This document shows, in pieces, positions 4,680 through 16,838 of a DNA stretch of 64,000 nt. Within the stretch, counting starts at the first letter, position 1; every line of letters begins with the position of its first letter. This DNA is from Streptococcus anginosus (GTDB lineage Bacteria > Bacillota > Bacilli > Lactobacillales > Streptococcaceae), in the NCBI RefSeq assembly GCF_900636475.1, contig NZ_LR134283.1, forward strand, positions 1,860,001-1,924,000. The letters run 5' to 3'. The translations under genes and the position numbers were made by a program. Under the pieces are notes generated by a model. It was not told the DNA's origin and did not search any database. It was given only the letters and a program-made list of their open reading frames with translations.

Positions 4680-5323
4680 TGCAAGTACTTGGAAGTTATG
4701 AGTTAGAAAAATATCAAACAGAAAAGTTTGAACCGATTATTTATAATATCTATCATAATAAAGGAGAAGATAATTATTGCTTTTGCTTTGAAATCACTGA
4801 GGAAGCAGATCAGTATCCCTTAGAGGATTTATTGACCCAATATTCCTTGAATTGCACGGATTTATACGGTCAAGAAAGTCAAGTAAATGGCACTTTGAAA
4901 TATCTGGTTGAGGTGGAAACCTCATCCAGTGATAAGGCGGATTTCATCAGTATTCTTAATTTTTCTACAATTTTAAATAAAGAGATTGTGAATTATGTAA
5001 AAGGAAAATATGAGTTCCTTGCTGAAAAGAGATGTATCAGTTCCTTTTATATGGGGGCTAAAAAAGTTGAAGTTCCTGTGCTTGCTTATCGAAGTGATAA
5101 CTCTGGGATGGTTTCTTTTAAAAATAAATATCCAGAAGGACAGTTAACAAATTTATTTTTAGAAGATAGAAGATATGATGTTGAATGTGAAGATGGGGAA
5201 TGGGTCTGTATTGAATTAATTAATGGCAAAGCAAACCTTATTTTAAAAGATTCAAAAGATGAATATTTCCAATATATTTTTGATTTGAAAGGCTTTCAAG
5301 CTGTCAGTCCTGTTTTAGACTGA
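4679..5323 (+). CDS. Conserved-looking protein of unknown function
   Basis: A 214-residue acidic cytoplasmic protein with no signal peptide, membrane segment or motif I recognise. Its ATG overlaps the rlmB stop, so it is translationally coupled to that gene. It is rich in aromatic residues and contains four cysteines. The first third (YNIYHNKGEDNYCFCFEITEE) and the last (FLEDRRYDVECEDGEWVCIELINGKANLILKD) read like a beta-rich fold. Base composition is slightly more AT-rich than rlmB. Coding potential is good, but function is unknown. Confidence 0.6.
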   Translation: MQVLGSYELEKYQTEKFEPIIYNIYHNKGEDNYCFCFEITEEADQYPLEDLLTQYSLNCTDLYGQESQVNGTLKYLVEVETSSSDKADFISILNFSTILNKEIVNYVKGKYEFLAEKRCISSFYMGAKKVEVPVLAYRSDNSGMVSFKNKYPEGQLTNLFLEDRRYDVECEDGEWVCIELINGKANLILKDSKDEYFQYIFDLKGFQAVSPVLD

Positions 5324-5417
5324 TCTAGCGAAATAACTTTCCAAAAAAGCAAGAAAGTTTAATAGCTAGCCCCCCAATAAGGTGGTAATTCAAAGCACCA
5401 TTAATAACCCACTTATG

Positions 5418-5442
5418 TCCATGGAGAAGACTCTCTGTGGGA
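5418..5442 (+). other. Hairpin in the leader before the DegV gene
   Basis: A stem of about ten pairs with one bulged G and two G-U pairs (TCCATGGAGA / TCTCTGTGGGA, loop AGAC) lies 24 bases before the ATG at 5467. It has no T tract, so it is not a standard terminator. The rest of 5324-5417 has no clear feature. Confidence 0.4.
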
Positions 5443-5466
5443 ACTAAAAAATGATGGAGAAAAAAG

Positions 5467-6336
5467 ATGACCTTTAAAATTTTAACCGATTCAACAGCAG
5501 ACTTGCCAGAAAACTGGACTCAGGAAAATGATGTGCAGGTCCTAGGCCTGACCATTCAGCTAGATGGCCAAACTTATGAGACAGTTGGTGCAGGCAAGCT
5601 GACCAGCCAAGAACTTCTGGATAAGATGGAGTCCGGCAGCAAGCCAACTACCAGCCAGATTAATGTCGGCCAGTTTGAAGATGTCTTTCGCGGCTATGCC
5701 AAGGAAGGAACGCCAGTTCTCTATGTAGCCTTTGCTTCGGCACTATCAGGTACTTATCAGAGTGCTGTCATGGCACGGGAGATAGTCTTGGAAGATTTTC
5801 CAGATGCACTGATTCGTATCATTGACACCAAGGCGGCTTCTATGGGTGAAGGACTTTTAGTCATGAAGGCGGCAGAAGCTAGAGCGGCTGGCCAGACCTT
5901 GGAGCAGACAGCAGACTTGATTGAGAGCTTGGTGCCGAAGGTCAAGACTTATTTTCTGGTTGATGACCTCAATCACCTCATGCGGGGCGGACGAATTTCA
6001 AAGACCGCAGCTCTTATGGGAAGTTTAGTCAATATTAAGCCAGTCATTGCAGTCAAGGGAGATGGAAGGCTGGATTCTGTGGCTAAAGTCCGTGGGAAGA
6101 AAAAGGCTCAGACTGAGGTGGTGCGCATGACCTTGGAGGATATTGCCGATCCGCGCGTGGTGATTGCTTATGCTGGAGCAGACAGCCAAGAGGTGGCTCA
6201 AGTCTTAAAAGAGCAACTTCTTATGTCAGAGCAAATCAATGATGTTTTAGTCTTGCCATTAGGTCCCGTTATTGCCACTCACACGGGTCCTGGAACTTTG
6301 GGACTATTCAGTATTGCCCATGAAAATCAAGATTAA
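5467..6336 (+). CDS. DegV family fatty-acid-binding protein
   Basis: A 289-residue DegV/FakB-type protein. Family members bind a fatty acid and present it to the kinase FakA so that exogenous fatty acids can be phosphorylated for lipid synthesis. Seen: the N-terminal signature ILTDSTADLP, the TSQINVGQF loop, the fatty-acid-contacting segment FASALSGTYQSA, the FLVDDLNHLMRGGRIS motif, and the C-terminal GPVIATHTGPGTLG. The length is typical. It is monocistronic between rlmB-orf and rplM. Streptococci carry several DegV paralogues, so the ligand preference is unknown. Confidence 0.9.
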   Translation: MTFKILTDSTADLPENWTQENDVQVLGLTIQLDGQTYETVGAGKLTSQELLDKMESGSKPTTSQINVGQFEDVFRGYAKEGTPVLYVAFASALSGTYQSAVMAREIVLEDFPDALIRIIDTKAASMGEGLLVMKAAEARAAGQTLEQTADLIESLVPKVKTYFLVDDLNHLMRGGRISKTAALMGSLVNIKPVIAVKGDGRLDSVAKVRGKKKAQTEVVRMTLEDIADPRVVIAYAGADSQEVAQVLKEQLLMSEQINDVLVLPLGPVIATHTGPGTLGLFSIAHENQD

Positions 6337-7892: not shown

Positions 7893-8474
7893 CTAGTCTA
7901 TATGATTATCTTTGTCTAGTGAGATGTATTGGTCAAGAGAAGAATGAACAAGGGTTAAAAATTTTTCTTTGAAGACTTGTGGTGGGAGTGGATTTTCTTG
8001 GGTTATCCACACTTCAATGTTGGCAATCACATAATGAACCAGTAGGGAGATGATAAAATCGTCTGGCAAATCAATAAGGGATTGATTCGGTTTGATATTT
8101 TCAAGTGCCCATTTTGTGTAAATCTTTTTTAAATAATTGGTCCAATAAGGATCCGTTGAGCTAGAATACAGCATTTTTAGCCATTTTCGATTTTCATAAA
8201 GAATAGGGAAAATGTTATCTGCAATGAAAAGAAATGGGTCTTTATTTTCGAGAGTATCATATTCTAAAAACATTTCGTAAATGGGCTTATCAATACTCTC
8301 ATGAATGGATTCAATGATGTCGTCAACACTATTGAAATGATGTTTATAAATTGCTTGACGTGAGATACCAGCTTTTTTGGCAAGGTCACTCATTGAGAGA
8401 TTGGCTTCATTGGGATTTTGCATTGCTAAGTCATAGAAAGCATCCAAAATCTTTTGTTGATTACCTTTTACCAT
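7893..8474 (-). CDS. TetR family transcriptional regulator
   Basis: A TetR-type repressor of 193 residues. The N-terminal helix-turn-helix reads LSMSDLAKKAGISRQAIYKHHF (residues about 27-48); the remainder is a helical ligand or dimer domain of unknown specificity. I chose ATG 8474, not the in-frame TTG at 8483: GGAG lies at the right distance (9 bases) from the ATG and abuts the TTG. It is divergent from the exopolysaccharide operon across a 460-base AT-rich gap and is a plausible regulator of it, by position only. Confidence 0.85.
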   Translation of the reverse strand: MVKGNQQKILDAFYDLAMQNPNEANLSMSDLAKKAGISRQAIYKHHFNSVDDIIESIHESIDKPIYEMFLEYDTLENKDPFLFIADNIFPILYENRKWLKMLYSSSTDPYWTNYLKKIYTKWALENIKPNQSLIDLPDDFIISLLVHYVIANIEVWITQENPLPPQVFKEKFLTLVHSSLDQYISLDKDNHID

Positions 8475-8498
8475 ATAAAACAACTCCTCTCTCTTTTT

Positions 8499-8527: not shown

Positions 8528-8934
8528 GAAAAAGTGAGTAATAAAGACGTTAATGCAATCCTTTTGAAATTGCTATTTATTAAGTTTAACAAAAATAACA
8601 TTTATCATGAATCTGTGTTTTGTTTGAGATAGAATTAACATCTGTGAATGGTATTGTAAAAATAAGATAAACAAAAATATTGATAGAATAGTCTAATTAT
8701 GATGTAATAGTAAAAGTGCACTATTTTTAATACATAATAATTTTACTATTATAAAACAGTGCTGAATAAGAGGATAAATTTTACATAAATAATAGGACAA
8801 AATCATATAGAATGTATGCTAAAATATTGACGGTATAAATTTAAAGCGGTACAATATTAGTGTATAGTAGGGGGTAGCTGTCTTATTTTAGCTAGGCGTT
8901 TTTATTTGTGTCATTCTGTTATAAGGAGGAAAAC
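8528..8934. other. AT-rich divergent intergenic region
   Basis: About 400 bases without a gene. It holds the operon promoter (8827-8855). After the expected transcription start, TAGCT...AGCTA forms a small hairpin (8876-8895) followed by GGCGTTTTTATTTG, which could be a weak attenuator. I looked for a c-di-GMP riboswitch and did not find its conserved core. No convincing TetR palindrome was found by eye. Confidence 0.4.
8827..8855 (+). promoter_or_regulatory. Promoter of the exopolysaccharide operon
   Basis: TTGACG (8827-8832), a 17-base spacer and TACAAT (8850-8855) leave a leader of about 73 bases before the GTG at 8935. Confidence 0.75.
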
Positions 8935-10083
8935 GTGAAAAAAATAAAGGTAATGGTCGTTTTTGGTACAAGACCTGAAGCTATCAAGATGGCTCCACTT
9001 ATTTTTCAATTGAAAAAACAATCAGAAAAATTTGAGACCATGACAGTTGTGACTGCCCAACATCGACAAATGTTAGATCAGGTATTGCAAACCTTTAACA
9101 TTGAACCAGATATTGATTTGGACATCATGGGAAAAAGTCAAACATTAACGGATATTACAGTAAAAATTTTAAACCAACTGGACAAACTTTTAAAAGAAGT
9201 GAAACCTGACATCATTTTGGTACATGGAGATACAACGACAACATTTGCAACAAGTTTGGCAGCTTTTTATAATCAAGTTCGAATTGGACATGTGGAAGCT
9301 GGTTTGAGGACATGGGAAAAGTATTCTCCATTTCCAGAAGAAATGAATCGTCAAATGACAGATGCTGTAACAGATCTTTATTTTGCTCCAACGATGCAAA
9401 GTAAAGAAAATCTCATTAAGGAAAATCATGATGAAAAAAACATATTTGTTACAGGAAATACAGCGATTGACGCTTTAAAATTGACTGTTCAAGAGAATTA
9501 TCATCATGATGTTTTGGAGCAAATACCATCAAATCATCGGCTGATTCTTGTTACCATGCACCGTCGTGAAAATCAAGGAGAACCAATGCGTCGTGTGTTT
9601 AGAACCTTGCGGCAAGTGGTCGAAGCGCATGATGATGTTGAGGTCATTTATCCTGTTCATTTAAGTCCAGCCGTTCAAGAGGCAGCAAAGGAAATTCTTA
9701 GCAATCATCCGCAGATTCATCTAATTGAGCCTTTAGATGTTGTGGATTTTCATAATATTGCAGCGAGAAGTTATTTCATTATGTCTGATTCTGGAGGTGT
9801 CCAAGAGGAAGCCCCTTCTTTAGGAAAACCGGTGCTGGTATTGCGTGATACGACAGAGAGACCAGAAGGCGTGACTGCTGGGACATTGAAGTTAGTTGGA
9901 ACAGAAAGTGAGAATATTCGCGAGGCTATGGAGACATTGTTGACAGATGAGACTGTTTATCATCAAATGTCTCAAGCTGGCAATCCGTATGGTGATGGCA
10001 GAGCGTCTGAGCGAATTGTAGAGGCGATTGCGTATTACTTTGGTTATGCAGCCAGACCAAAAAATTTTGTGATAGGAGAATAA
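8935..10083 (+). CDS. mnaA: UDP-N-acetylglucosamine 2-epimerase (non-hydrolysing)
   Basis: Interconverts UDP-GlcNAc and UDP-ManNAc in the cytoplasm. The whole family pattern is present: VVFGTRPEAIKMAPL, THGD-like LVHGDTTTTFA, GHVEAGLRTWEKYSPFPEE(M)NR, GNTAIDAL, MHRRENQGEPM and DSGGVQEEAPSLGKPVLVLRDTTERPE. Length is 382 residues from the GTG at 8935. I chose this start over an in-frame GTG at 8908 because ATAAGGAGG sits 6 bases before it. It is the first gene of the operon, so its product UDP-ManNAc is the likely precursor for the GT2 synthase two genes on. Confidence 0.93.
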   Translation: MKKIKVMVVFGTRPEAIKMAPLIFQLKKQSEKFETMTVVTAQHRQMLDQVLQTFNIEPDIDLDIMGKSQTLTDITVKILNQLDKLLKEVKPDIILVHGDTTTTFATSLAAFYNQVRIGHVEAGLRTWEKYSPFPEEMNRQMTDAVTDLYFAPTMQSKENLIKENHDEKNIFVTGNTAIDALKLTVQENYHHDVLEQIPSNHRLILVTMHRRENQGEPMRRVFRTLRQVVEAHDDVEVIYPVHLSPAVQEAAKEILSNHPQIHLIEPLDVVDFHNIAARSYFIMSDSGGVQEEAPSLGKPVLVLRDTTERPEGVTAGTLKLVGTESENIREAMETLLTDETVYHQMSQAGNPYGDGRASERIVEAIAYYFGYAARPKNFVIGE

Positions 10084-10084
10084 G

Positions 10085-10873
10085 ATGTATCGAAAAAAAG
10101 AACTGGAATGGACAATTGCTTTACTAATTATCGTAATTTTAGCAATTGTTGGTTATAGTTTCTATTTTGCGAGTAGTATTTTTCATGTTGAAATTATTTT
10201 GATTGCTCTTGCTATCTTGAGTGTATTTGTCTTACCAGATATGTTGCTGACTTGGCTGTTAATTTTTAGCGTTGTATTAGCAACTTTGTTTTTAGTGGCA
10301 GGTGTTGTGTATATACCAGCAAATCAGCGTTTCTTATTATTGATTACTTTTCCAGTAGTTCTGAGAATAGCCAAGCAAGTTAATATTCATCGACGAACCT
10401 ATCTTTCTATTGTCAAAGACTATAGTGAGCAAGCAAAAGAATTGTATGAAAGCCATTTACAGGCGGTTCGAGATGGACGGGAAGAAAGCTTTCAAGCCTT
10501 ATTAGTCCATTGGGCGCATAATGATTATTTTCAACAAATTTATCCAAAAGAATTTCGTTGGATGTTGGTGCGCCTCTATGCAACTTTAAAGAAATGCATG
10601 CAAGAAACAGGAACAGTTTATTATCTTTCAAATGGAAATTTTCTCATTTTATCTTCAGGAGAAGGACAGTCTCTAGTAGAATTATTTCAGCACAGCATGC
10701 TTGCTAAATTGTTACTGTTGCGTTTTAAAACTAGTAAGAGTGTGCACGAAGTGCAGTATAAATCAGGCTATCTGTTGATTGATTCAGAAAATTGTGAAAA
10801 GTTTTTAAACTTTGATGATTTTGTTAAAAATCTGGACAGACAACTTGAAACAGACATTATTGTAGAATACTAG
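10085..10873 (+). CDS. Membrane protein with degenerate GGDEF-like domain
   Basis: A 262-residue protein starting one base after the epimerase stop. Residues 8-95 form about four membrane segments. Residues 100-130 are an amphipathic linker. From about 137 the order FQALLVHWAHNDYF...EFRWMLVRLYATLKKCM...VYYLSNGNFLILS follows a GGDEF domain: first beta strand, long helix, then the beta hairpin. SNGNF (182-186) replaces the GGDEF signature, and no RxxD I-site precedes it. It therefore should neither make c-di-GMP nor bind it in the usual way. The best inference is a structural or regulatory partner of the synthase, comparable to PelD or the Listeria Pss receptor. The domain call is by eye. Confidence 0.6.
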   Translation: MYRKKELEWTIALLIIVILAIVGYSFYFASSIFHVEIILIALAILSVFVLPDMLLTWLLIFSVVLATLFLVAGVVYIPANQRFLLLITFPVVLRIAKQVNIHRRTYLSIVKDYSEQAKELYESHLQAVRDGREESFQALLVHWAHNDYFQQIYPKEFRWMLVRLYATLKKCMQETGTVYYLSNGNFLILSSGEGQSLVELFQHSMLAKLLLLRFKTSKSVHEVQYKSGYLLIDSENCEKFLNFDDFVKNLDRQLETDIIVEY

Positions 10874-10883
10874 GAGGGAATCT

Positions 10884-11024
10884 GTGACCATAACCAATAT
10901 ATTTTTTGGAGTAGCATTGGCAATTAGTATCTTTTTTGCTGTATGCTTTGTTGTGCTGTTTATTTGTTATTTAATTATTTATAACAGAGTGAATAAAAAC
11001 TTTAAGGCGGTGAACCATGATTAG
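10884..11024 (+). CDS. 46-residue membrane peptide in the exopolysaccharide operon
   Basis: A short gene easily missed. It starts at GTG 10884 with TAGGAGGGA upstream; this ribosome site overlaps the previous stop codon. The peptide has one hydrophobic span (NIFFGVALAISIFFAVCFVV continuing to about residue 33) and a short basic tail NRVNKNFKAVNHD. Its stop overlaps the start of the GT2 gene by 8 bases, so translation of all three genes is coupled. The position suggests a small subunit of the synthase complex; small membrane subunits are known for other synthase-dependent polysaccharides. No family recognised. Confidence 0.65.
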   Translation: MTITNIFFGVALAISIFFAVCFVVLFICYLIIYNRVNKNFKAVNHD

Positions 11025-12327
11025 TCAGTTGATTATGATTATCACTCTGGTATCCATTTGGTTATCCTTGGTTTGGAGTTTAGTTACTTTGAGTTCAGGT
11101 GTTCATTTTTGGCTAAAACATAGCGACTTTAAAGTAGATACTAGTCCTTTAGAGAGCTATCCGATGGTTACAATTGTGGTACCAGCCCATAATGAAGATG
11201 TGGTCATTGCGCAAACAACAAGAGCTATTTTGGATATGAATTACCCACATGACAAAGTGGAATTGCTTTTATTTGCGGACAATTGTGAAGATACTACTTA
11301 TCAAGAAATGTTAAAAGTAAAAGCGATGCCAGAATATGCTACACGAGATATTACCATTACAGACCGGAAAGGGACTGGCGGAAAAGCAGGCGTTTTAAAT
11401 GATGCTCTGAAAATGGCGAAGGGTGAATATATCTGCGTTTATGATGCAGATGCTATGCCAGAGAAAAATGCTCTTTATTTTCTTGTTAAGAAAGTTCTGG
11501 AAGATCCAGAACGCCACGTGGCATCTTTTGGTCGAAACAAGACACGAAATGCGAATCAAAATTTCTTAACACGTTGTATCAATCAAGAGATTGTCGTGAC
11601 GCAACGAATTCAACATGTTGGTATGTGGCATATGTTTAAAATTGGTCGCATTCCTGGCACAAACTTTATTATCAACACTGAATTTGTAAAAAGCATTGGT
11701 GGGTGGCGAAATGGCGCCTTGACAGAAGATACGGATATTTCTTTTAAAATTATGCAAAGTGGGAAATTGATTGCTTTAGCTTATAATTCTGAAGCTTTCC
11801 AACAAGAACCAGAGACAGTTAAAAGCTATTATATGCAGCGGAAACGTTGGGCTAAAGGAAATTATGAAGTTGTGATTTCAAATTTCAAGCATTTGTTTGA
11901 CAAGAGCAATTGGCGCGTGAAATTAGAGGTAGCCTACTATTCCTGTGTTTTCTTCTGGTTTAATGCAGCAATAATTTTATCAGATATTGTCCTTTTGTCA
12001 AATGTGATTGCTATTATTGTTCATCTATTTGTTCCAAGTGTTCATATTCCTTTTACATTTGATTCAAGTAATATTTACATTGCGCAATTGATGTTGTTTA
12101 ATTGGCTTTTGATGATTATGCTGTATCTCTTACAAATCAATATCGCTCTAGCCTCCCAATTTGGTCAAGCGACTTCTAAGCAGATTTGGTTAGCTTTGAT
12201 TTCTTACTTTACTTATTCGCAGCTATTCATCATTGTTTCAATTGATGCTGTAACTTCTGTGACCTTGGACAAACTCTTCCATCGTGACGGAACCAAGTGG
12301 GTTAAAACGAAGCGATTTGCAGGATAG
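11017..12327 (+). CDS. Family 2 processive glycosyltransferase (BcsA-like polysaccharide synthase)
   Basis: A membrane synthase of 436 residues. One N-terminal membrane helix (about 3-28) is followed by a GT-A domain and three to four C-terminal helices (from about 303). Catalytic motifs of processive GT2 enzymes are all present: VVPAHNE (55-60), the DxD as D143-A-D145, the TED motif (236-238) and QRKRW (274-278) of the QxxRW type. These enzymes polymerise a nucleotide sugar and push the chain through their own pore. With an epimerase gene in the operon, a ManNAc-containing or GlcNAc/ManNAc polymer is likely; the sugar cannot be read from the sequence. There is no PilZ domain. Confidence 0.88.
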   Translation: MISQLIMIITLVSIWLSLVWSLVTLSSGVHFWLKHSDFKVDTSPLESYPMVTIVVPAHNEDVVIAQTTRAILDMNYPHDKVELLLFADNCEDTTYQEMLKVKAMPEYATRDITITDRKGTGGKAGVLNDALKMAKGEYICVYDADAMPEKNALYFLVKKVLEDPERHVASFGRNKTRNANQNFLTRCINQEIVVTQRIQHVGMWHMFKIGRIPGTNFIINTEFVKSIGGWRNGALTEDTDISFKIMQSGKLIALAYNSEAFQQEPETVKSYYMQRKRWAKGNYEVVISNFKHLFDKSNWRVKLEVAYYSCVFFWFNAAIILSDIVLLSNVIAIIVHLFVPSVHIPFTFDSSNIYIAQLMLFNWLLMIMLYLLQINIALASQFGQATSKQIWLALISYFTYSQLFIIVSIDAVTSVTLDKLFHRDGTKWVKTKRFAG

Positions 12328-12335
12328 GAGGAAAC

Positions 12336-13439
12336 GTGAAAAGAACAAATTTAAGATATGTTTGGTTAGTTGCTATTTTATTGGCAATCATTACTATTTT
12401 TATTTATGTTAGATTCAATAGTACAGGTCATTTGAAGAATCAGATTTACCAACAATGGTCAAAAAATTATGTAGTTCAGCAAAAAGACAAGGCTTACGTC
12501 AAAACAACGAACGATAAGAAAAAGGATGTTGTGCTGTCTGAATCGCAGGGCTATGGAATGGTGACTGCGGTTGAAGCGGCAAAGCAAGGGTATGCCAGCC
12601 AGAAAGATTTTGAACGATTATACAATTATTATTTAGCACATCGCATGAAAAACACGCAGCTGATGTCATGGCGACAAACAGTCAAAAATGGTGTCGTTAC
12701 AGCCGAAACCAATAATGCAACAGATGGCGATCTTTATATTGCGTATGCTCTGATTCGAGCAGCTAAATTATGGCCACAGAAGGCTGATGCATATCATACA
12801 CAGGCTAGGGCAATCTTAAAGGATATTTTGACTTATAATTACAATAGTACAACAGGAGTGTTGACAGTTGGGAACTGGGCAACTTCAGACTCAAAATACT
12901 ATCGTTTAATGCGAACGTCAGATGTCCTTCCAGCACAATTTCAAGCCTTTTATAAGCTGACAGGCAATGCACAATGGTTAAAGATAAAATCAAATATGTT
13001 GTCTAAATTAGAATTGATGAGTGCTAAATCAAAAACAGGTCTACTTCCTGATTTCCTTTGGGTGGAAGCAGATACAGTTCGGGCAGCTGAGAAAAAAGCT
13101 GTTGCTTCTAAGTATGACGGTGATTATTATTACAATGCTTGTCGCTTGCCATATAATTTAGCGCAAAGTCGGGATAAACAAAGCCAGAATATATTGAATA
13201 AAATGATGAATTTCTTTATGAAACAAGAAGTGCTTTATGCTGGTTATACGTTAAAAGGTAAGGCTCTAAATCATTATCAGTCTGCTAGTTTTGGCGCTCC
13301 GATTTTCTATGCAGCCAGCCGAAATTCAGCATATCGAAAACTGGTTCAGCAAAATAAATATATTTTTATGCAAGATTTGTCAAAGGAAAATTATTATGAA
13401 GCAGCCATGATTACCCTTGTTGCACTAGATGCTTTATAA
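12336..13439 (+). CDS. Membrane-anchored GH8 glycoside hydrolase
   Basis: A 367-residue protein with an N-terminal signal anchor (residues about 8-25) and an extracytoplasmic (alpha/alpha)6-barrel of glycoside hydrolase family 8. Seen: the proton-donor Glu in LSESQGYGM (E69) and the second acidic site in NATDGDLYIAYAL (D130/D132), followed by GLLPDFLWVE. Start GTG 12336 with GGAGG upstream. A GH8 enzyme beside a GT2 synthase parallels BcsZ in cellulose operons and PssZ in Listeria, where it trims or releases the polymer. Last gene of the operon. Confidence 0.85.
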   Translation: MKRTNLRYVWLVAILLAIITIFIYVRFNSTGHLKNQIYQQWSKNYVVQQKDKAYVKTTNDKKKDVVLSESQGYGMVTAVEAAKQGYASQKDFERLYNYYLAHRMKNTQLMSWRQTVKNGVVTAETNNATDGDLYIAYALIRAAKLWPQKADAYHTQARAILKDILTYNYNSTTGVLTVGNWATSDSKYYRLMRTSDVLPAQFQAFYKLTGNAQWLKIKSNMLSKLELMSAKSKTGLLPDFLWVEADTVRAAEKKAVASKYDGDYYYNACRLPYNLAQSRDKQSQNILNKMMNFFMKQEVLYAGYTLKGKALNHYQSASFGAPIFYAASRNSAYRKLVQQNKYIFMQDLSKENYYEAAMITLVALDAL

Positions 13440-13625: not shown

Positions 13626-16600
13626 CTATTCTTCTTTTTTCTTTAAATGGAGCAAGTAGCCACTGACAAGAATGAACATGCTAGCAATAACCAAGCTGCT
13701 TTGATTTTCTTTGCTTCCTGTTTGTGGAAGTTGAGCTTTTCGAGTAGCGTTCATGATTTGAGGTTGAGGAGTATAGCGTAGGGTTGTAGCTTGACCAGCC
13801 TGAGGTTTTTGATTGATGATTTCAACAACTTCAGTAGAAGGTTTTTGTTCTTTCTCAAGATCTTTCAGTTGAGCTAATTGACTGCCAAAGATAGCATTGG
13901 ATACCCAACGGTAGAAATGAATCGTGTGAAGACGGTTTGTTGGGTTGCCAGCATAAATAAAGAGTGGTTGTTCTTTGTAGCTACCAGAAATAGCTACAAT
14001 TTTATTGGCTAACTGTTCATTACCTGGCCACCAACCAGCGATATAATAATCACTGCCAGCAATCGAAGCTAATGTCTTGAAATTTGCAGGTACTTTAGCA
14101 ATCCAATTTCCAGAGTTAGAATAGAAAAGATCATTCTTATTGTAACCACTAGTCAACGGATCTTTGTCATCAATGATCGCTTTCATCAAGCCTTCATAAT
14201 CACCACCATTTTTGAGTTGCTCTGCGTCAAAGCCGTCAACCACACCGAGTTCTTCAAGGCGTTGCATAGCAGTTCCGCCTACTACAATAGTTGGCTTCAG
14301 ACCAAGGAGGGACTTGTCAAAGTTGTCACTTTCTAAAACAATCACATCAGCTTCTTCAGGGGTATTGACAATGTCAAATCCTAAATTCTTCAAAGCAAGA
14401 GCGGTATGAGCAGGAGTATCCACACCAGCCCAATAGTATTGATGAGGCGGTGCATAAACTTTTAGAGCTTTTAAGGTTTGCCCTTGAGGAGTTTTATAAA
14501 GGGCATCTCCATAGATTGCATAGTTTTTCAGCAGGTTGGCAAAAGTAGGTGTATCCACGATGTAGCCATCGTCTGTCAAATAAACTTTCTTACCGTCTCG
14601 GATTGCACGATTGACAGCGCGAACGGCACTTTCTGAAGTATTGGCAATGACATAATATGGTGCTTTGTGGTCAATTTCGCTAGTCCGAGTAGCACGAAGA
14701 GCAGTTACTTCACCGAGTTTACCGTCAAAGAGTTTTTCTTTAAAGACTGCTACTGCTTTGAATCCCCTCATATCTGGGAAATTAACCAGCAATTCTGCAT
14801 ACATAGCGGCCCAAGCAGATTCGTTGGAGCCCTTGTAGAGGATATGGTTGGCATAGCCACGTTTAGCTTGTGCCATATCAACAACCAAATCACCCTTCTT
14901 ATAACCGCCAGTGTCTTCCTTCAATTCTTGAACGACAACGCCGTTTCTCTTGAAGTATTCAATCATATTATAGGCCTGTTGGGAGTCATTGCTCTTATCA
15001 AGTCCCATTGGAATCACATAATAATCGGGGAAGAATTTCTTTTGTCCATGTTTGATACGACCGACCACTTTACCATCTGGTCCAACTAATTCATTTTCAG
15101 CTTTTGGATCTTCTACTTTGTTCACGCCACGAAGGTAGAAGTTGAGGCGCATTTCCATGAGTTTATCAGGATTTTGGGATAAATAATCAATTCCTCCCAA
15201 AACAGCATGGAAACCAGCCTTGTAAGATTCTTGATTTCCTTGAGGGATTTCAATAGTGTGTCCTAGAATGCCATGATACATGCCATAAACACCAGTATAA
15301 CCAGAAAAAGAGTCGTCCCAACCGTCGCCCCAGTCTAACTTCGGAATGATGTAGTGATCATAGTTAGAATTGGCAACGCCAGCACGTCCCATGTGATGAG
15401 CATTTTCTAGCATAAGGTCTGCTAAAAGATCATACTCAAAGTTTGGATCGTGCGGTGGAGTTGCTGGCTCAATCAGGAAGTCCTTGACAAAGCCGTGGAT
15501 GTCGTAAAGTGCAATTGGATTCCATTTATTGATAAGTCCAGCAACCGTGCGAGTTTCAGGGTTTGTCTGATAGCTCGTATCGCGGTTAGGATCCAGACCA
15601 TTTGCAAGTGCACGTGTATTGGCAACATCTCCGTCAGGATTTTCTGTGAAATCAAAGAGGAAGATGAATTTCTTGAGAAGGTCTTTAACGGAGAGGGTTA
15701 CGATTTTTTGTGTTCCATCTGCTTGAGTTGTTTTAAAGCTGATTTGGTCTTGGGTTGCGAAAGAATTGAACAAGCCGGTAATAATATCGATAGCAGGTTG
15801 CTCATCCGCATGTGTATTGTTAATGAGGATAGGAAGTTTATAGTTCAACTTGCCATCTTTGAGGGCTGCCAACATTTCAGCGGGTTTGGTTAGCGCCATT
15901 TTATTGGTTGAATTGAGGTAATCATCAATGCTTTTTTGATCAGAACTGATAATGCCTAACTTAATTTTCCGTCCTTGAGCGCTGGTACCAATGTTTTCAA
16001 TTTTAACAAGCCGATCATTTTTAGCTTCTTGTCGACTTTTTTCAATAGCAGCTAACATTTCTTCGTGAGTATGGAAGTTTTCATACGGTCGGAAAACAAG
16101 TGTTTTTCGAATTGTCAGACCGGATTCTTCATCTGTTCCAACGAGCTCATGATTTCCGATGAATTGCCGATAGGTTCTGCGGATATTATTTGGCGTCCGA
16201 AGACTTAAATCCTTTCCAAATAATTCATTAAATTTGAGAGAAAGTTTGAGGTCAGAGCCATTAGTTGTTTCCTCAATGGTGACAAAGGAATCTCCTGAAA
16301 AGTCTCCTTTTTCCATATTCCAAGTTTTCCATTCAGCGATTGGTTTATTATCTAATTTCCAAGTCACCTTGCCAGCAGCGGCTCCTTGTTCCTGTACAGT
16401 CTCAGTAATGGTAGCTTTTTCAGACATATGGACTGTACTATCAGCTAATTGAACCTTTTTTTCTTCTGTTTCAGCTGCTCGTGTTTCTGGTTTTACAGGT
16501 GTTGCAGGAGTCTCTGTTCCGGATTCGTTTGTAGTAGAAGTCGAACTGTCTATTGAAGGAGCACTTTCTGATTTGTGTGCTTCTTCTTGATTGGTTGTTG

Positions 16601-16838
16601 TGGGAAGCTGAGCTTCGGCTGATGAGGAATCTGGTGTCGCTGTCGCTTCTGTTGTGTTTGTTTCCGTACTTGACTTTTCGGCAGGGACTACCGTTTCTGT
16701 CTTGTTAGCAATAGGCTGTGTCTCCGTGCTATCTTGCGTATCTGCAGCAGCATTTCCTTGCGTTAAAACTGCAACAAGAACGGCAGCTGACAAGCTGAGA
16801 ACATTTGTGTACAATCGTTTCTTATATGAATTTTTCAT
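13626..16838 (-). CDS. LPXTG-anchored M14 zinc carboxypeptidase family surface protein
   Basis: A cell-wall protein of 1070 residues. The signal peptide (residues 1-32) is followed by a Ser/Thr/Glu-rich low-complexity stalk (to about 130) and an M14 peptidase domain. Zinc ligands appear as HADEQ (about 342-346) and the His of DIHGF (about 444); the catalytic Glu is probably in HTIEIPQG (about 529). The C-terminal half is unassigned and has Rossmann-like repeats. The end carries LPQTG, a hydrophobic span and LKKKEE for sortase anchoring. M14 enzymes remove C-terminal amino acids or trim peptidoglycan peptides; the target is unknown. It is expressed alone. Ribosome site AAGGAGG. Confidence 0.88.
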   Translation of the reverse strand: MKNSYKKRLYTNVLSLSAAVLVAVLTQGNAAADTQDSTETQPIANKTETVVPAEKSSTETNTTEATATPDSSSAEAQLPTTTNQEEAHKSESAPSIDSSTSTTNESGTETPATPVKPETRAAETEEKKVQLADSTVHMSEKATITETVQEQGAAAGKVTWKLDNKPIAEWKTWNMEKGDFSGDSFVTIEETTNGSDLKLSLKFNELFGKDLSLRTPNNIRRTYRQFIGNHELVGTDEESGLTIRKTLVFRPYENFHTHEEMLAAIEKSRQEAKNDRLVKIENIGTSAQGRKIKLGIISSDQKSIDDYLNSTNKMALTKPAEMLAALKDGKLNYKLPILINNTHADEQPAIDIITGLFNSFATQDQISFKTTQADGTQKIVTLSVKDLLKKFIFLFDFTENPDGDVANTRALANGLDPNRDTSYQTNPETRTVAGLINKWNPIALYDIHGFVKDFLIEPATPPHDPNFEYDLLADLMLENAHHMGRAGVANSNYDHYIIPKLDWGDGWDDSFSGYTGVYGMYHGILGHTIEIPQGNQESYKAGFHAVLGGIDYLSQNPDKLMEMRLNFYLRGVNKVEDPKAENELVGPDGKVVGRIKHGQKKFFPDYYVIPMGLDKSNDSQQAYNMIEYFKRNGVVVQELKEDTGGYKKGDLVVDMAQAKRGYANHILYKGSNESAWAAMYAELLVNFPDMRGFKAVAVFKEKLFDGKLGEVTALRATRTSEIDHKAPYYVIANTSESAVRAVNRAIRDGKKVYLTDDGYIVDTPTFANLLKNYAIYGDALYKTPQGQTLKALKVYAPPHQYYWAGVDTPAHTALALKNLGFDIVNTPEEADVIVLESDNFDKSLLGLKPTIVVGGTAMQRLEELGVVDGFDAEQLKNGGDYEGLMKAIIDDKDPLTSGYNKNDLFYSNSGNWIAKVPANFKTLASIAGSDYYIAGWWPGNEQLANKIVAISGSYKEQPLFIYAGNPTNRLHTIHFYRWVSNAIFGSQLAQLKDLEKEQKPSTEVVEIINQKPQAGQATTLRYTPQPQIMNATRKAQLPQTGSKENQSSLVIASMFILVSGYLLHLKKKEE

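Follow-up and report, generated by a model that had tools for sequence, protein, structure and literature searches.

The window analysed here, a 64,000-nt stretch of Streptococcus anginosus (NZ_LR134283.1; all coordinates refer to it), carries at positions 8935..13439 five genes, all on the forward strand, which appear to form an operon for a synthase-dependent polysaccharide. The first-pass annotation had placed here an epimerase, a GGDEF-like membrane protein, a 46-residue peptide, a family 2 glycosyltransferase (GT2) and a family 8 glycoside hydrolase (GH8), and all five open reading frames (ORFs) were found in that order and at those positions. The first gene (8935..10083) encodes a uridine diphosphate N-acetylglucosamine (UDP-GlcNAc) 2-epimerase of the WecB/MnaA type, which scores 525.5 bits against TIGR00236 of NCBIfam (cut-off, 210) and starts with GTG at 8935, with the ribosome-binding sequence AAGGAGG upstream. 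ORF2 (10085..10873) encodes a 262-residue protein with four transmembrane (TM) helices, a cytoplasmic degenerate GGDEF domain and the C-terminal tail R-x-x-E-T-D-I-I-V-E-Y. ORF3 (10884..11024), preceded by a ribosome-binding site, encodes a 46-residue single-TM peptide with the conserved C-terminus RVNKNFKAV. The GT2 gene (11017..12327) encodes a processive-type synthase of 436 residues, and the GH8 gene (12336..13439) a membrane-anchored, probably extracellular, glucanase/chitosanase-like hydrolase of 367 residues. The junctions along the operon measure 1, 10, -8, and 8 nt; the tight coupling by overlaps described earlier holds for ORF3 and GT2 only, which share 8 nt, while the other genes are separated by gaps of 1, 10, and 8 nt. 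A Shine-Dalgarno-like sequence precedes each of the five genes, those at the junctions sitting in the ends of the preceding genes.

The gene set is not special to the window strain. GT2 (E-value of at most 1e-60) was present in 24 of 118 Streptococcus genomes, and strong ORF2 matches were found in the same 24, a co-occurrence exceeding chance. A 25th ORF2 match (G096; E-value 3e-5, residues 10-158, four stops in frame) was excluded from this count. The epimerase, ORF2, ORF3, and GT2 follow each other in the same order in all 24 operon-bearing genomes, GH8 lying outside the short stretches used for this check. Among the 22 longer Streptococcus loci, the epimerase and ORF2 stand beside GT2 in 21 (all but L025), the peptide in 22, and GH8 in 21; L023 ends inside GT2, and L001 holds only a 37-residue piece of GH8. 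The locus of Streptococcus sp. Marseille-Q5986 (L025, 6868-9406) is a decayed operon, where the peptide is kept, GT2 and GH8 are each broken into two shifted pieces, and the epimerase and ORF2 were not found. Flanks were compared in 7 of the 22 loci, and the downstream neighbours were alike in L002, L004, and L008 and different in L010, L013, L016, and L026. Since the block from the epimerase to GH8 is constant while the flanks differ, the unit consists of five genes.

Outside Streptococcus, 19 genomes contained GT2 with an identity of at least 55%, and 18 of the other Lactobacillales loci (L129-L146) were fetched, the one in G595 being split over two contigs. All 18 encoded GT2, GH8, and an ORF2-like protein, GH8 being split in L141 and the ORF2-like gene in L139; 17 encoded the peptide, L146 being the exception, and one (L133) had an adjacent epimerase. 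A similar set occurs in Paenibacillaceae-like genomes, where four loci have an ORF2-like gene, a similar-sized peptide was recognized by reading frames in the gap before GT2, and, of the two loci scanned, one has an upstream gene with weak similarity to GH8. These loci are collectively called here the compact type. BcsB (PF03170) was absent in the genome of the window strain (1.95 Mb, a single contig) and in all 50 compact-type genomes checked, and was present in both Listeria-like genomes (loci L147 and L148). Other Firmicute loci outside the compact type were designated type A and follow a different plan; of the two scanned, L085 has the order GGDEF protein, DUF2334 protein, GT2, and BcsB, and L092 comprises GH8, GGDEF, DUF2334, and GT2, after which the contig ends.

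The assignment of the synthase to processive GT2 enzymes was confirmed by its DAD, TED, and QRKRW motifs, which align with those of BcsA and PgaC and correspond to DxD, TED, and QxxRW, and by hydropathy, which places an N-terminal TM helix before the GT-A domain and a TM bundle after it. No PilZ domain was seen in GT2, and its low-confidence structure model matched mannosyltransferase PcManGT, then BcsA and hyaluronan synthases. Of four comparators, Listeria-like PssC was the nearest (248 bits over the full length; 32-34% identity to the proteins of L147 and L148), followed by Escherichia coli PgaC (95 bits), BcsA (75 bits), and NfrB (25 bits; E-value 0.024). The best NCBIfam profile was PgaC/IcaA (TIGR03937) with 134.5 bits versus a cut-off of 422.3, and GT2 did not qualify as a poly-N-acetylglucosamine (PNAG) synthase; nor did it qualify as a cellulose synthase, with 86.9 bits versus 699.1 for CelA (TIGR03030) and BcsB also absent. 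The GT2 tree separated the compact type, as a single group with a support of 96/99, from type A and the Listeria-like sequences; PgaC and BcsA were on very long branches, and only the split of the compact type from Listeria-like and type A sequences was used. L147 and L148 probably represent Listeria, judging by their EAL proteins (three) and GGDEF proteins (four); three of the latter are cyclase-like, with two encoded side by side, and the other one follows GT2 and BcsB. Such a GGDEF/EAL/pss gene content is described for Listeria monocytogenes (PMC4125290, in part).

The ORF2 product shares 95-97% identity with proteins annotated as S. anginosus or S. periodonticum, and the Pfam search of the window sequence gave nothing over the cut-off. 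The GGDEF-like domain claimed for it was borne out by the predicted structure (predicted local distance difference test score, 83.4), for which nearly all of the Foldseek and VIA-align matches listed were described as GGDEF or diguanylate cyclase proteins, and by its Paenibacillaceae-like homologues, both of the two scanned exceeding the Pfam GGDEF cut-off. A phmmer search against PDB sequences returned mostly phosphodiesterase-10A chains (E-value about 0.07-0.2), judged to be chance matches.

In streptococci, the fold is retained and the site for cyclic dimeric guanosine monophosphate (c-di-GMP) is lost. The alignment of ORF2 partners comprised 65 distinct sequences: 32 streptococcal, 19 from other Lactobacillales, 4 Paenibacillaceae-like, 8 type A, and 2 Listeria-like. 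Six compact-type loci did not contribute: the start-finding routine failed for L003 and L047, L135 and L144 were not taken, the gene is split in L139, and none was found in L025. The type A sequences came from 8 of the 16 non-Paenibacillaceae loci fetched (L085, L086, L087, L089, L091, L092, L093, and L096), five being recognized by the ORF2 profile and three by gene order. None of the 65 sequences (0/32 streptococcal) has the GG[DE]EF signature of an active diguanylate cyclase, SNGNF occupying this position in the window. The in-register RxxD motif was found in 0/32 streptococcal and 0/19 other Lactobacillales sequences, and in 4/4 Paenibacillaceae-like, 8/8 type A, and 2/2 Listeria-like ones; the window protein has QETG instead. 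In 18 of the 19 sequences from other Lactobacillales, an Arg lies one column upstream and Glu replaces the Asp of RxxD, and this shifted Arg has been lost in streptococci too (0/32).

The messenger itself also seems to be missing. Neither GGDEF nor EAL matches were found in the 24 operon-bearing Streptococcus genomes (0/24 for each), as opposed to GGDEF matches in 20 of 20 GT2-carrying genomes outside Lactobacillales, some of which can be the partner gene itself. Weak GGDEF matches in 650-680-aa frames of some Lactobacillales genomes presumably represent GdpP-type phosphodiesterases of cyclic dimeric adenosine monophosphate (c-di-AMP) rather than cyclases. The Streptococcus milleri group is reported to encode no known diguanylate cyclase (PMC12345266, in part), which agrees with these counts. 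Thus, the statement of the first-pass annotation that most streptococci are not known to make c-di-GMP stands, and the tuning by c-di-GMP that it noted for known relatives of this plan does not seem to apply here. Since the Paenibacillaceae-like, other Firmicute, and Listeria-like relatives keep RxxD, the sequences are best explained if the streptococcal GGDEF domain descends from a c-di-GMP receptor and no longer senses c-di-GMP. A simple correlation between the RxxD site and the presence of a cyclase failed in Lactobacillales, where G573, G615, G787, G788, and G790 have a strong GGDEF protein and no in-register RxxD. Because cyclase-bearing compact-type genomes also lack the in-register site, its loss is not simply a matter of messenger loss; our claim is confined to the loss of RxxD in streptococci and does not extend to its cause.

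The most conserved stretch of ORF2 is its C-terminal tail, with a mean column conservation of 0.75 at residues 248-262 versus 0.40-0.41 elsewhere. All 55 distinct compact-type sequences aligned have Arg252, Glu255, Glu261, and Tyr262, a combination that occurs in none of the 10 type A and Listeria-like ones. Synonymous codon variation in the tail (22 different DNA sequences among 43) indicates that the constraint acts at the protein level. The invariant R..E.....EY segment (residues 252-262) corresponds to positions 10838-10870 of the window. A conserved tail devoid of predicted structure looks like a docking segment, and since it goes with the compact type, we infer that it may bind GT2 or the peptide.

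The 46-residue peptide is real: each of the 24 operon-bearing Streptococcus genomes (L027-L050) encodes it at the same place, with a length of 46-47 aa. Its Pfam search yielded nothing over the cut-off (PF10669, 24.5 versus 29.3 bits). The GH8 assignment was likewise upheld by PF01270 (109 bits, over a cut-off of 24), and an N-terminal TM helix was predicted. The nearest solved structures were glucanase 5xd0 and chitosanase 1v5c, and GH8 structures in the match list were named glucanases, endoglucanases, chitosanases or xylanases. Glu69 and Asp132 are shared by all 26 sequences of the alignment, some being taken as GH8 by position only; Glu69 aligns with a Glu of BcsZ which we take to be catalytic. 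The sequence YYYNACRLP resembles YYYNASRVP of chitosanase 1v5c. The protein does not belong to the BcsZ cellulase subtype, scoring 62.2 versus 299 bits for the equivalog NF008305.

The epimerase had suggested a polymer containing N-acetylmannosamine (ManNAc), and this is supported as likely. The only Epimerase_2 match in the genome of the window strain is the operon gene. Epimerase_2 is present in 24/24 operon-bearing versus 29/94 operon-free streptococci, 20 of the 24 having no second copy, and each of 28 further genomes checked (26 compact-type and 2 Listeria-like) has one somewhere. Since PssC is the nearest relative of GT2, Pss is a ManNAc polymer, and the epimerase is the sole copy and shows this distribution across genomes, ManNAc is the likely monomer; a beta-1,4 linkage may also be assumed. 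Outside Streptococcus, most Lactobacillales cores have no adjacent epimerase, and therefore synteny there leaves ManNAc unproven. In the Lactobacillaceae-like locus L133 (2732-4986), the epimerase gene is located directly downstream of GH8, which suggests a second, separate coupling of epimerase and synthase. The epimerase frame of S. oralis DD15 (L010, 4509-6077) has 522 residues, is about 140 residues longer than the others, and reaches the start of ORF2.

The closest known system is Pss of Listeria (pssA-E, lmo0527-0531), with which the operon shares the nearest GT2 among the four comparators (taking L147 and L148 as Listeria), a degenerate membrane GGDEF partner, and the ManNAc precedent. 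The Pss polymer is described as beta-1,4-ManNAc with alpha-1,6-galactose (PMC10172500, in part, citing Koseoglu 2015). Listeria Pss includes BcsB-like PssD and the I-site c-di-GMP receptor PssE (PMC4125290, in part), while the window operon has no BcsB and no RxxD and contains the 46-aa peptide, GH8, and the epimerase. It is not a member of Pss since BcsB and a c-di-GMP site were both sought and not found. Judging from its sequence, the locus is a compact, predicted messenger-uncoupled variant outside the Pss, PNAG, and cellulose systems, and by analogy it probably works like Pss. The earlier description as a synthase-dependent polysaccharide locus with a GGDEF-like partner stands, amended in that the locus belongs next to Listeria Pss as a compact, BcsB-free relative.

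The full five-gene set was also found in S. ratti and S. devriesei, and ORF2 in S. macacae, S. ferus, and S. orisasini; all five are presumably mutans-group species. An operon of matching order is known in S. mutans (epsC, SMU.1437c-1434c, of the CovR regulon), likewise running from epimerase to glycosyltransferase; gene order and the presumed mutans-group relatives suggest that it is the same operon. This operon has been studied genetically, so the claim that no streptococcal system with this set has been characterised holds in that no polymer has been assigned in the open-access literature searched. According to the available part of PMC3595261, epsC is the one gene of the locus deleted and no polymer is assigned; the mutant formed smooth colonies and an 8-h biofilm that adhered loosely, and it released more DNA. 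The same source describes the operon as repressed by CovR and down in a vicK mutant on arrays, yet treats epsC as CovR-only.

Partial likenesses to other systems were also found. The gts operon of Lactobacillus acidophilus (GtsA, GtsB, and PdeB) has a BcsA-like GT2, a membrane partner, and a degenerate c-di-GMP-type domain, but the c-di-GMP receptor there is of the degenerate EAL type, and no GGDEF-like partner or GH8 is described in the accessible part of the report (PMC6123363). The cellulose synthase system (BcsA, BcsE, BcsF, and BcsZ) combines GT2 with GH8 and, in E. coli, has a degenerate-GGDEF protein, BcsE (PMC8461298, in part), and a small protein, BcsF, of 63 aa; unlike it, the window locus has no PilZ domain seen and no BcsB, and the identity of GT2 to BcsA is 21%. 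The NGR system of E. coli (NfrA/NfrB/WecB) pairs a synthase with a WecB epimerase, and a ManNAc polymer has been proposed for it (PMC8669472, in part), but NfrB is barely similar to GT2, is annotated as c-di-GMP-activated, and works with a Gram-negative outer-membrane partner. Streptococcal Pel is another exopolysaccharide machine without c-di-GMP control; it uses another glycosyltransferase family, and the GGDEF domain of PelD is missing outright (PMC12345266 and PMC7112168, in part), whereas in the window locus the domain is retained and the binding site is lost. Since PelD dropped its GGDEF domain and the window locus kept it, the retained domain may serve some other role.

Taken together, we consider it about two-thirds probable that the operon encodes a compact membrane polysaccharide synthase, predicted to make a ManNAc polymer. 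The gene set, predicted fold, site loss, co-occurrence, absence of GGDEF and EAL matches, and link to Listeria-like PssC behind this reading were computed directly. The epimerase would convert UDP-GlcNAc to UDP-ManNAc, which GT2 would polymerise and extrude through its own TM helices. The GGDEF-fold protein and the ORF3 peptide would be obligate membrane subunits contacting GT2, assembling or gating it and keeping it in a working state, the former probably via its invariant tail. Control would have shifted from c-di-GMP to gene expression, and the anchored GH8 could trim or release the chain outside. A more specific version is offered tentatively, at somewhat less than even odds: poly-ManNAc would be a widespread exopolysaccharide of commensal streptococci, and the protein that once received c-di-GMP would persist in their minimal synthase as a fixed ligand-free scaffold, its tail and the peptide docked on GT2 and replacing both BcsB and messenger control.

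Several observations weigh against this reading. The GT2 model has low confidence (63.6); residues 258-262 of ORF2 were modelled with confidence below 50, and the tail partner is a guess. The Epimerase_2 contrast among streptococci is partly circular, the gene itself being an operon member, and the epimerase also occurs in 29/94 operon-negative genomes. An adjacent epimerase is absent in 4/4 lactobacilli and 17/18 other Lactobacillales loci with the core. The 18-h biofilm biomass of the S. mutans epsC mutant was unchanged (PMC3595261, in part). RxxD stands one column out of register in 5/19 other Lactobacillales sequences (L019, L024, L134, L136, and L137), and a strong cyclase-like GGDEF protein was found in six non-streptococcal compact-type genomes (G573, G615, G652, G787, G788, and G790). 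In the five of these with a whole partner gene (L129, L145, L017, L019, and L024), there is no in-register RxxD; L019 and L024 carry the shifted RxxD, and c-di-GMP may act through this site in non-streptococcal Lactobacillales.

GT2 could instead make a PNAG- or cellulose-like polymer of GlcNAc or glucose, with the epimerase feeding another pathway or a side branch. Its leading NCBIfam profiles, PgaC/IcaA and then CelA, the glucanases, endoglucanases, chitosanases, and xylanases among known GH8 structures, and the lactobacilli without an adjacent epimerase would fit this, but both profile scores are far below their cut-offs, BcsB is absent in the 50 compact-type genomes, Listeria-like PssC is a much nearer relative, and the epimerase is the first operon gene and the sole copy; we regard such a polymer as unlikely. 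The locus may alternatively produce a cell-wall glycopolymer or a teichoic-acid linkage unit rather than a free exopolysaccharide, since UDP-ManNAc is also required to attach teichoic acids to the wall and the DNA release of the epsC mutant was interpreted as a cell-wall effect (PMC3595261, in part). The processive QRKRW motif and the C-terminal membrane bundle of GT2 argue against this, GH8 and GGDEF-type partners suit synthase-dependent export, and the probability of a wall glycopolymer appears very small.

Less probable than a GlcNAc or glucose polymer is a continued role of the GGDEF-like domain as a nucleotide receptor, be it for c-di-AMP, c-di-GMP of neighbours, or another nucleotide. 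The shifted Arg with Glu for Asp in 18/19 non-streptococcal Lactobacillales sequences is a potential binding site, and glucan synthesis in S. mutans has been linked to c-di-AMP (PMC8461298, in part); however, streptococci have neither the shifted Arg nor RxxD, and no GGDEF or EAL domains were found in their 24 operon-bearing genomes.

If the operon is a compact ManNAc-polymer synthase, a surface polymer is predicted for roughly one in five of the Streptococcus genomes sampled (24/118), including oral species, and the locus suggests a possible basis for the biofilm phenotype of S. mutans epsC. Paenibacillaceae-like proteins with RxxD, other Lactobacillales with the shifted site, and streptococci with none constitute a natural series for asking what a messenger-free GGDEF domain does, and the small BcsB-free synthase set is open to reconstitution.

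Upstream of the operon, a consensus scan located a promoter-like site on the forward strand (8827..8855, TTGACG-17-TACAAT, 10/12 matches), which is a weak call since 29 such sites versus 19.1 expected were found in the region. A search for CovR sites (consensus from PMC3595261) gave 69 matches with at most three mismatches, where chance alone would give 40.9; two lie upstream of the operon, each with three mismatches, and the result is uninformative. A divergent TetR-type regulator gene (TetR_C_8; 7893-8483, reverse strand) lies just upstream, and a 1,070-aa LPXTG-anchored protein (NCBIfam) is encoded convergently (13626-16838, reverse strand); we take the latter to resemble M14 zinc carboxypeptidases. 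Both were rejected as operon parts, having no match at an E-value of 1e-3 in 51 loci, 25 of which are short stretches (3.5-3.8 kb) unable to show these genes. Since it has no match in the other loci, the TetR regulator is probably unrelated to the operon. In the Liquorilactobacillus locus L024, a TetR-like ORF, recognized by eye, is located upstream of the core (5212-5787).

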